From an uncultured Bacteroidales bacterium (GTDB lineage: Bacteria; Bacteroidota; Bacteroidia; Bacteroidales; UBA932): DNA of 7,063 nucleotides. The notes beneath the pieces were generated by a model. The model was not told the origin of the DNA, did no database searches, and worked only from the letters and a program-made list of their open reading frames with translations. Location of the stretch: positions 1 through 7,063 of the forward strand of contig CAMZCW010000120.1 in the NCBI GenBank assembly GCA_947305045.1, read 5' to 3'. The first letter of the stretch is position 1. Each line of letters begins with the position of its first letter. The translations under genes were made by a program, and so were the position numbers. Shown here one piece after another: positions 4,211 through 6,286 of this stretch.

Positions 4211-6286
4211 ATGGAACCATACACGAATAACCACATACAGGAGATGCCCTTGCAGTCTCCTTTCTTCCGCAGCAAAGTGGAAAGTTTCCTCCGGGCAAAC
4301 GGCCTGCGGATGGAAACATTGGATGTATATTACACCCTACAAAATACAGATGGAGACATCCTGGCAGGTGCAGGCTTCGCCGGGGATGTGATTAAATGCG
4401 TGGCGGTGGCTGAGGAAGCCCGTTCAGAGGGACTTGTTGCACCGCTTGTATCCCATATTCTTTCCCAGCATGGAGCGGGGAACCTGAAAGTGTTCACCAA
4501 GCCGGAGAACGAAGCCGTCTTTTCTAGCCTTGGCTTCCATGTGATTGCCCGCGCTCCGCTTGCCATTCTTATGGAAAACGGCAGGGGACTGGATGCCTAT
4601 TGCGCCTGTCTGAAAGATACACTCGCTGCGCCTTCGGCTTCGCTCGGTATGACAGGTTCCTTGTCATTTCGAGCGAGCGCAGCGAGTCGAGAAATCCCCT
4701 CTGTCGGGGTTATAGTCATGAATGCCAATCCTTTCACCCTGGGGCACCAATACCTGCTGAAGCAGGCCGCCGCCCAGGTGGACTGTCTGGTGGTCATTCC
4801 CGTGAAGGAGGATATATCCGTCTTTCCCTATGTAGAGCGTGTGTCCATGATAAAAGCCGGTGCCAAGGAGATCTCTCCGCGCGCTACGTTGGGTCGAGAT
4901 GACAAAGATGTCGTACCGAGCGAAGCGAGTGTATCTCCAATACTTGTTGTAGACGGCAGCGACTACCAAATCTCCGCCACTACTTTCCCCACCTACTTCC
5001 TCAAAGACCTCTCTGAGGCTGCTGAAACCCAGATGCGGCTGGACCTGGACCTTTTTGCCCGGCACATTGCGCCGGCCCTGGGCGCCACCGTCCGCTTTGT
5101 GGGTTCCGAGCCTCAGGACCCGCTCACGGCCCGCTACAATGCCCTCATGCAGGAACTGCTGCCCCTGAAGGTGGTAGAGATCCCTCGTTTATCAGCATCC
5201 GTAGATATTTCAGAAGAAAATTATTTTTCGCAAGGCTTTGCGAAAAACCAATTTTCTTCTGACGATGGAACGCCGGAGCACAATACGAAGGCCATTTCGG
5301 CATCGACCGTTCGGACTGCCCTGGAGCAGGGGAGTTACGCCCGTGCTGCCGCGCTGTGCCCGGAAAGCACGCGGCCCTACCTGATGGCGGCCCTGGCGGA
5401 GCGCGCCCTGCGCCTGGAATTGGATACACCGCTCAAACCCGGCCTGGTGGGCCCGGACAGCCATGGAGCGCATATAGACATGGACTATGCCCTCATGCAA
5501 AAAGCCATCACCGCACTCCGCCCTTACTGGAGCCGCATGGCCAAGGCCAGTGTCCCTTCGCTCCTGCAAATGATTGGCATCGAGGCAGAGAAAGCCATGA
5601 AAAAAGCCACGGGCGGGGTGAACACCCACCGCGGCGCTATCTTCGCCCTGGGCCTGGCCCTGAATGCCCGTGGAATGGAAGTGCCTGTAACAGAGGGAGT
5701 TATGCAAAATCGTCTATGTAAAACTGCAGAGACGATTTTGCATAATCAATTGACTGAAAACAACTTACATTCCACGCTTCAAAATGGGCGCAACGCAGCC
5801 CGCTCCCACGGCGAAGAGGCCGTGAGCCAGTACGGTGTCAAAGGCGCCCGCGCACTCGCCCTGGAGGGCTACAAAGACCTCTGGACCAACTGGCTTCCGT
5901 ATTATAGAGATACACTCGGCCTTCGGCCTCGGTATGACAGGAATGAAGACCGGCCTATGCCCTCTGTCATACCGAGCGAGCGTAGCGAAGCGAGTGTATC
6001 TCCTGCCCAAAAGACACTTTTGCGCATCATGTCCACCCTGGACGATACTTGCGTCATTCACCGGGTGGGCTATGAAAGGGCACAGGAGGTGAAGCGTGAG
6101 GCTGCTGACGTACTCATGGCCGAAGAAAAATGGTTTTTCGCAAAGCCTTGCGAAAAATATTTTTCTTCGGCAGGTAACATGCTTCAGGACCTCTGCGCCC
6201 GCTATGCCGCGGAGGGCATTTCGCCCGGCGGGGCAGCGGACATGCTGGCCCTTACTATCCTTATTGACTCATTAACAAACAGATAA
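4211..6286 (+). CDS. citCG: CitC-CitG fusion: citrate lyase ligase / triphosphoribosyl-dephospho-CoA synthase, with repeat insertions
   Basis: This is a 691-residue fusion. Residues 1 to about 392 are CitC, which acetylates the citrate lyase carrier using ATP and acetate. A GNAT-like part holds [20 protein letters not shown] and GLGFHV-like FSSLGFHV. The nucleotidyltransferase part holds [10 protein letters not shown] (170-179), [45 protein letters not shown] and ISAS (362-365). Residues from about 393 are CitG, which makes 2'-(5''-triphosphoribosyl)-3'-dephospho-CoA from ATP and dephospho-CoA. Its motifs are [49 protein letters not shown] and [13 protein letters not shown]. The usual GARGEA motif reads GARALA here. 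Repeat elements encode residues about 135-162, 220-243, 334-351, 497-512, 566-598 and 637-654, falling between the motifs. ATG 4211 was chosen over TTG 4166, which would add 15 residues. There is no frameshift or stop. The stop is 5 nt before the hydratase start. Confidence 0.92.
4614..4697 (+). repeat. Family A REP-like doublet 1 (head-to-head) inside citCG
   Basis: The left arm, 4615-4654, runs AGATACACTCG ... GGTATGACA. It is the reverse complement of the repeat type TGTCATACC...GTGTATCT. After a 7-nt spacer, the right arm, 4662-4696, runs TGTCATTTCGAG ... GTCGAGAAATC, a second subtype with the same TGTCA end. The arms face each other head to head, like the paired REP units of BIMEs/REPINs. 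The element encodes about residues 135-162 of CitCG ([10 protein letters not shown]... to SREI), between the GNAT-like part and [10 protein letters not shown], where characterised CitC proteins have no comparable segment. The 4614-4697 span is 84 nt, a multiple of three. Confidence 0.85.
4870..4938 (+). repeat. Family A REP-like doublet 2 (head-to-head) inside citCG
   Basis: The left arm, 4870-4904 (GATCTCTCCG ... GAGATGACA), is a degraded copy. It matches the reverse complement of the right arm of doublet 1 at 26 of 35 positions with no gap. After AAGA, the right arm, 4909-4938 (TGTCGTACCGAGC ... GTGTATCTCC), is a near-perfect copy of the other subtype. The total is 69 nt, or 23 codons, encoding about residues 220-243, between KAGAKE and [12 protein letters not shown]. 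The order of subtypes is the reverse of doublet 1. Confidence 0.82.
5211..5261 (+). repeat. Family B palindromic element, copy 1, inside citCG
   Basis: This is a near-perfect hairpin. The outer arms are CAGAAGAAAATT (5211-5222) and AATTTTCTTCTG (5250-5261). The inner arms are TTTTTCGCAA (5224-5233) and TTGCGAAAAA (5238-5247). The loop is GGCT, with a small A / CC internal bulge. It encodes residues 334-351 ([10 protein letters not shown]...FSSD) in the CitC part just before ISAS, where relatives have only a short linker. A second copy in the opposite orientation is at 6119-6171; the 47-nt cores differ at only two positions. Confidence 0.92.
5700..5745 (+). repeat. Family C palindromic element inside citCG
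   Basis: There is a perfect 16-bp inverted repeat: TTATGCAAAATCGTCT (5700-5715) and AGACGATTTTGCATAA (5730-5745), separated by 14 nt. It encodes residues about 497-512 ([16 protein letters not shown]) of the CitG half. It is unrelated in sequence to families A and B. Only one copy is in the window, so its being a dispersed repeat is inferred from the perfect stem and its position in a gene rich in such elements. Confidence 0.75.
5907..6002 (+). repeat. Family A REP-like doublet 3 (head-to-head) inside citCG
   Basis: The left arm, 5907-5939, runs GAGATACACTCGGCC ... GGTATGACA. The spacer is 25 nt (5940-5964). The right arm, 5965-6002, runs TGTCATACCGAGC ... GTGTATCTC. Both arms belong to the same subtype, with the variable part in the middle of each arm. 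The total is 96 nt, or 32 codons, encoding about residues 566-598 ([12 protein letters not shown] ... [10 protein letters not shown]), between the [10 protein letters not shown] region and [18 protein letters not shown] of the CitG half. Confidence 0.88.
6119..6171 (+). repeat. Family B palindromic element, copy 2 (inverted), inside citCG
   Basis: The outer arms are GCCGAAGAAAAAT (6119-6131) and ATTTTTCTTCGGC (6159-6171). The inner arms are TTTTTCGCAA (6134-6143) and TTGCGAAAAA (6148-6157), with loop AGCC. The loop and the GG / T bulge are the reverse complement of copy 1 (loop GGCT, bulge A / CC), so this copy is inserted in the opposite orientation. It encodes residues 637-654 ([18 protein letters not shown]), shortly before [13 protein letters not shown]. 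Confidence 0.92.

Follow-up and report, generated by a model that had tools for sequence, protein, structure and literature searches.

The window, the whole stretch of 7,063 nucleotides of Bacteroidales DNA that was analyzed, contains a citrate lyase operon comprised of the end of a citE-like gene, citF, an esterase-like gene, a DUF3108 gene, citX, citCG, and an aconitase-family gene. The esterase label is that of the first, sequence-only reading. Positions 4211–6286 of the plus strand encode the fused citrate lyase ligase/CitG protein (Pfam Citrate_ly_lig and CitG) in a reading frame of 691 codons that is open throughout. The best other protein shares 84% identity with the window CitCG, and the name Candidatus Cryptobacteroides is attached to 2 of the 120 CitCG protein matches listed. 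The closest genome loci lie in the Bacteroidales MAGs UBA2716 (L001, 80%) and UBA3764 (L002, 76%). Relatives are designated by G numbers for genomes and L numbers for loci, L136 being the citCG gene of G001, and the census of repeats was made on the relatives' genomes. An Rfam scan of the window at the gathering threshold returned zero matches, and comparison with plasmid DNA gave four records, none of which spanned more than 4% of the query. The gene had been described as essential-looking, which fails for the group of genomes around G001, where a CitCG protein match, in some cases partial, was found in 56 of 200.

The initial annotation reported six in-frame palindromic or paired-repeat elements in citCG, and all six are present close to where it placed them, accounting together for ~400 nt of open frame. 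Three are head-to-head doublets of TGTC-tagged REP units (family A), each with two units whose TGTCAT-type heads face one another: A1 at 4615–4697, recognized from its inverted repeats and as an alignment insert; A2 at 4868–4938, identified from sequence with the left unit read by eye; and A3 at 5908–6003, identified from sequence and inverted repeats. The two family B hairpins are inverted repeats, B1 at 5210–5262 on the plus strand and B2 at 6119–6171 in the opposite orientation, on the minus strand. The remaining element, C, is a coding hairpin at 5699–5746, an inverted repeat with arms at 5700–5718 and 5727–5745. The folding z values of the insert segments, calculated against dinucleotide shuffles, are −5.0 for A1, −3.9 for A2, −4.5 for B1, −5.4 for A3, and −7.5 for B2. 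The initial annotation saw no similar elements in citE, citF, the esterase gene, the DUF3108 gene, or the hydratase gene; scans with the A core (three matches) and the B core (two matches) gave no match in the window outside citCG. The left half of A3 (5908–5945) is a tandem repeat with one unit in the window and three in L001 and L002.

Strong folding is also found in the inserts of related genes. With the C block left out, inserts of closer relatives, defined by a summed BLAST score of at least 545 and not by taxonomy, had z below −2 in 46 of 65 cases and below −3 in 35 of 65, compared with 4 and 3 of 65 equal-length core windows; the inserts are mutually non-independent, which qualifies the Mann-Whitney p of 7e-13. 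Among inserts of more distant relatives, z was below −2 in 1 of 14. In the predicted model of CitCG, residues 140–161, 223–240, 330–359, 490–539, 563–610, and 634–659 have pLDDT values below 50. The insert sites are low-confidence stretches of this model, whose mean pLDDT is only 60.

Occupancy of Protein Loops in Relatives

In an alignment of CitCG proteins (38 of the 120 listed), the residues of A1, A2, B1, A3, and B2 fall where close relatives have gaps, a coincidence that the initial annotation had proposed to test. Across 99 distinct citCG genes, 113 inserts were counted in ten blocks, with 34 in the C block, using a threshold of at least 10 residues (at least 12 in the first block). The same site may be occupied in different ways. 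At site 6, the window, L001, L002, and L003 share one orientation of B, L159, L005, L152, and L008 have the opposite one, and L139, L157, and L164 have CCCG-type hairpins instead; in many other genes this site is empty or different. At site 2, the window has a REP doublet, L002 a lone REP, and L001 nothing; the site is occupied by B copies in L003 and L159, and by stacked other hairpins plus B in L008 and L144. A B-like tail (ASPAHAD) without the B hairpin is present at site 2 of L152 and L141 and at site 6 of L144, as if the hairpin had been lost. Loop 5 of citCG in L149 and L141 contains long inverted repeats unrelated to A, B, or C.

Other proteins show similar variation. In an alignment of the query with 21 of 120 listed KsgA proteins, in which some of the length differences lie elsewhere, the loop after residue 26 is short in proteins of 264 residues and filled in others of up to 316 residues, the fillers being peptides that at the protein level resemble A, CCGG-type, or other inserts. 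In an HI0933-like protein, the position ahead of one conserved segment is occupied by A in G001 and G002 but by B in G005. A given protein loop is empty in some species and occupied by one family or another in others. The suggestion that several small hairpins have repeatedly colonized loops of CitCG is supported by its loops, which hold different families or none depending on the species, and the KsgA loop, which behaves alike at the protein level, is counted toward it. The many host genes and the varying CitCG and KsgA loops together point to a lineage-wide process rather than to one odd gene.

Dispersal of Families A and B

Copies of A and B are dispersed across related genomes, and many lie within genes without disrupting the reading frame. 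The A core, with at most one mismatch, was matched in 11 of 14 genomes, with 38 matches in G001, 62 in G002, and 119 in G008, and gave zero matches in the Leyella stercorea and Prevotella bivia genomes. The placement of A units was determined with a looser pattern and a purpose-written gene finder that missed some genes, on stretches chosen largely for holding A, units less than 150 bases from a stretch end being skipped. On these terms the 68 units of the G001 stretches divide into 22 within predicted genes, 16 overlapping gene ends, and 30 that are intergenic; the corresponding numbers for the 23 units of the G002 stretches are 7, 7, and 9. Since 90% of stretch bases are predicted to be coding and about one-third of the A units are in genes, A is concentrated between genes. 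The intragenic hosts include DNA polymerase I, a Mur ligase, MetG, KsgA, UvrA, MurB, IspG, TatD, a PmbA/TldD protein, and a radical SAM/UPF0004 protein, and all 20 A-host proteins scanned had known domains. Among 32 in-gene rows, window included, two of which have no translation, 18 are read in the SVIPSEASVS frame, 6 in a reverse frame ending LGMT, and 4 in a CHSERS-like frame.

The A units carry TGTCAT heads and thus the CGTC/TGTC tag that characterizes tagged REPs. Inspection of single units by eye shows AT at the base of a stem that is interrupted by mismatches, and the doublets are head-to-head in 3 of 3 cases, a count made in the window only. Family A is filed as a CGTC-type REP, provisionally as regards the stem and the predominance of dimers.

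Family B hairpins are 41–53 nt long. A search of 400 genomes from the related group found the B arms GAAAATTATTTT...AAAANCAATTTTC in 24, and a reversed control of the arm pattern gave zero matches in the same 400 genomes. The B loci examined are a subset of the genome matches, with rows sharing identical near flanks merged, and comprise 68 rows or, with two elements listed on both strands, 66 distinct copies. The gene finder placed 33 of the 68 rows inside genes, 15 were moved to the intragenic class by reading, and 20 are outside or unclear, so that 46 of the 66 distinct copies are inside genes (32 by gene finder, 14 by manual reading). The rows that were moved are L257, L273, L287, L259, L262, L094, L091, L096, L268, L090, two of L099, and three of L270; L091 and L094 were checked with Pfam and the others were judged by resemblance. 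Of the 33 gene-finder rows, 26 are in the ENYF.....KNQFS frame (EKYF...KNHFS included) and 4 are of the EKWFF type. Hosts of B include CitX, MutY, AtpB, RnpA, RibF, the HI0933-like flavoprotein, UDP-glucose dehydrogenase, and a glycosyltransferase, with known Pfam domains in 8 of 8 host proteins scanned. In L257, L273, L287, L294, and L093, B apparently lies in the N-terminal AtpB tail that precedes the conserved domain, the AtpB identity having been checked with Pfam on L093 only. G198 (L258, L277, and L280) has 16 forward and 16 reverse B arm matches, far above the other genomes, and all five of its B copies examined are outside genes according to the gene finder.

Because the search pattern fixes the B arms, these show no variation. 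In the inner stem of 32 distinct B cores, 35 cells are changed on both sides, compared with 15.2 ± 2.5 in shuffles, whereas the count of further pair types shows the opposite trend (8 versus 9.6 shuffled). Family B is filed as an untagged hairpin working like a Rickettsia palindromic element (RPE). The B cores have on average 4.8 open frames of 6 compared with 3.7 in shuffles, and the third A doublet has 4 compared with 1.2. Stop-free frames were rejected as a sign of adaptation to coding, as single A units, D units, and the 53-nt B1 are not clearly above shuffles.

Base Pairing of Hairpin C

C had been described as a plain insert like the others, a description ruled out by the 99 homologues, where its codons are present as a 72-nt version in 33 and a 48-nt version in 57. 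Over all 33 of the 72-nt segments, 74.0% of positions are paired in the register of the window hairpin, compared with 28–43% in 26 other registers. Covariation was analyzed on 30 of the 33 segments, L138, L156, and L148 being omitted without a set rule; in these 30, pairing is 74.2% (slid versions, 32–40%), both sides are changed at 17 of 22 pairs, and the covariation score is 0.367 compared with 0.170 ± 0.016 in shuffles and 0.08–0.11 with the partner slid by 1–3 columns. One pair that joins two second codon positions is G-C in 13, C-G in 11, and A-U in 3 sequences, indicating that amino acids were changed on both sides while the pairing stayed. The strength of the hairpin differs between genes and is not always high: against synonymous recoding, z is near −3 for the window and L136, near −1 for L002, and near 0 for L137. 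G-U occupies 20 of 283 paired cells of the inner stem, a scarcity that fits arm-to-arm copying better than stepwise selection on RNA, although copying is unproven. We lean toward the pairing being kept by arm copying during replication rather than by hairpin selection. C is filed simply as a coding hairpin.

Conservation of Shared Inserts

Some inserts shared between species are nearly invariant at third codon positions. For A1, A3, and B2 jointly, 74 of 74 third positions are identical between the window and L136 and 72 of 74 between the window and L002, compared with 0.80 and 0.64, respectively, in the 25-codon flanks; for B2 alone the comparison with L136 is not significant (p 0.2). The HI0933-like insert behaves similarly, with 31 of 31 identical and flanks at 0.72. 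B1, by contrast, is at 0.77 between the window and L136, close to the core value of 0.73, and the MurB insert is at 10 of 18 with flanks at 0.80. A search of 1.93 Mb of partly overlapping sequence located the A3 linker in citCG orthologues and nowhere else, so that A3 resembles a single insertion that these genes share. The strong conservation of the shared inserts is not accounted for by selfish DNA that moved recently; nucleotide constraint, short-patch exchange between species, and repair copying are possible causes.

Transposase Genes

Y1_Tnp matches were found in 13 of 13 genomes searched, including two without the A core. At 23 of 25 Y1 loci, the two of P. bivia being left out, the A core was absent among the REP-like matches listed, and at no fewer than 4 of these 23 the displayed frame was not a transposase. 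With Y1 genes found also in genomes that lack the A core, and with no A core among the matches listed at the 23 loci, no transposase partner is claimed; the Y1_Tnp genome and locus searches tied neither A nor B to a transposase. CCGG-type hairpins lie within the Y1 stretches of L230 (two), L247, and L249, and at L237 a Y1 transposase-like frame is preceded, at a distance of ~180 bases, by a strong hairpin whose head is CGTCAC.

Interpretation and Alternatives

We consider it likely that these are protein-coding palindromic elements spread throughout the Bacteroidales lineage, which insert in frame, are tolerated in loops, and are mobilized in trans, C being an older hairpin that has been kept. 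The A and B repeats would then be putative mobile DNA of a non-autonomous kind, dependent on an enzyme supplied in trans. Insertions in frame in tolerant loops would survive and be translated as flexible loops, and other insertions in genes would be lost. C may be an older hairpin of citCG, still base-paired through template-switch copying of its arms or through selection on the hairpin. The host mechanism rendering insertions harmless that the initial annotation had offered finds no support: loop tolerance and loss of out-of-frame insertions would suffice, and 46 of 68 A units in the G001 stretches are either outside genes or across gene ends. More tentatively, the intragenic palindromes could be actively kept, by arm copying or hairpin selection, overriding the protein in tolerant loops and reshaping housekeeping proteins. 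We are doubtful of this, slightly more so because B1 and the MurB insert do not share the conservation; if it is true, the two arms would be held complementary over long times, and hairpin inserts would multiply, endure, and alter many housekeeping proteins.

The hairpins could instead be kept for a function at the nucleotide level, acting for example as mRNA or DNA hairpins in translation pausing or mRNA decay, making the insertions adaptive and not merely tolerated. Such a function would accord with the near-invariant third positions of A1, A3, B2, and the HI0933-like insert relative to their flanks and with the preservation of C pairing through double changes. However, the same loops are hairpin-free in many relatives, B1 is no better kept than the core, the MurB insert is kept worse than its flanks, and G-U pairs in C are few, and we judge this explanation to be unlikely. 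The covariation of C, together with the long inverted repeats of unrelated sequence in the L149 and L141 loops, would also suit an origin in place, in which fast-evolving loops gain inverted repeats by template switching without any mobile element. This is very improbable as a general account, given that A and B recur with the same sequence at unrelated genes and in intergenic DNA; the dispersed, near-identical copies exclude an in-place origin for A and B, whereas C and the unique loops may have such an origin. It is scarcely credible that the inserts are junk and citCG an allele in decay. The protein match in only 56 of 200 genomes might be expected of such a gene, but the frame is open, zero stops occur inside any listed genome match, and the insertions are also found in housekeeping genes. 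Moreover, core identity between the window and L136 is 0.73 at third positions compared with 0.92 at first and second positions, which makes a decayed allele unlikely.

Relation to Known Repeat Systems

The comparisons below are with the available portions of the papers cited. CGTC-tagged REPs, which form predominantly head-to-head dimers, occur in Bacteroidetes (Di Nocera et al. 2013, PMC3733652); they are defined by an 8–9-bp stem starting with AT, a 4–5-nt loop, and a short tail, have intragenic copies in other bacteria, and lack a dedicated transposase (PMC3733652). Family A shares with them the tag, head-to-head dimers such as the doublets of the window, a Bacteroidetes host, intragenic copies, and the lack of a dedicated transposase, and like them was not seen to flank transposase genes (matches listed at 23 Y1 loci). 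Intragenic Bacteroidales copies, the untagged family B, and a maintained coding hairpin such as C are outside the description in the available text of PMC3733652. The REPIN is likewise a head-to-head REP doublet, as in family A, but is moved by a RAYT, and the space in which it was counted was extragenic (Bertels and Rainey 2011, PMC3116915); in the present genomes, the matches listed at 23 Y1 loci gave no case of A flanking a transposase gene.

The palindromic elements of Rickettsia are in frame in many protein genes, with several families and several copies per gene (PMC3733652, PMC2229807, PMC6649704); RPE-4 and RPE-6 are intragenic members of the tagged REP superfamily (PMC3733652). A and B resemble RPEs in lying in frame in protein genes that have insert-free homologues. 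RPE hosts are Rickettsiales, whereas the present hosts are Bacteroidales that are not intracellular as far as known, and Rickettsia elements lose repeat identity over time (PMC6649704 in its available part), whereas C stays paired and most of the shared inserts tested are conserved. Coding inverted repeats in the mitochondria of Nematomorpha, possibly kept by template switching (PMC6649704), are similar in lying inside genes and in their possible maintenance, but, as described in the portion available, are long, perfect, and located in conserved regions, unlike the short palindromes in variable loops seen here. RepRanger (PMC12306157) provides further background on repeats. The statement that nothing of the sort was described for Bacteroidota needs dividing, in that CGTC-tagged REPs are reported in Bacteroidetes, and no report of intragenic palindromes in Bacteroidales was found in the literature within reach, which excluded the supplementary gene list of PMC3733652, subscription papers, and supplements. 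Two results exceed what such elements are known for, namely the pairing of C kept through changes on both sides and the third-position conservation of three shared inserts.

Rickettsia is the best-known source of protein-coding palindromes, and here several families of them are in many core enzymes of gut Bacteroidales, with many relatives in which a loop is empty or filled, making element movement, loop tolerance, and arm matching testable. SVIPSEASVS, CHSERSEES, and DTLASLGMT in predicted proteins may be inserted repeats that disturb alignments and domain annotation.
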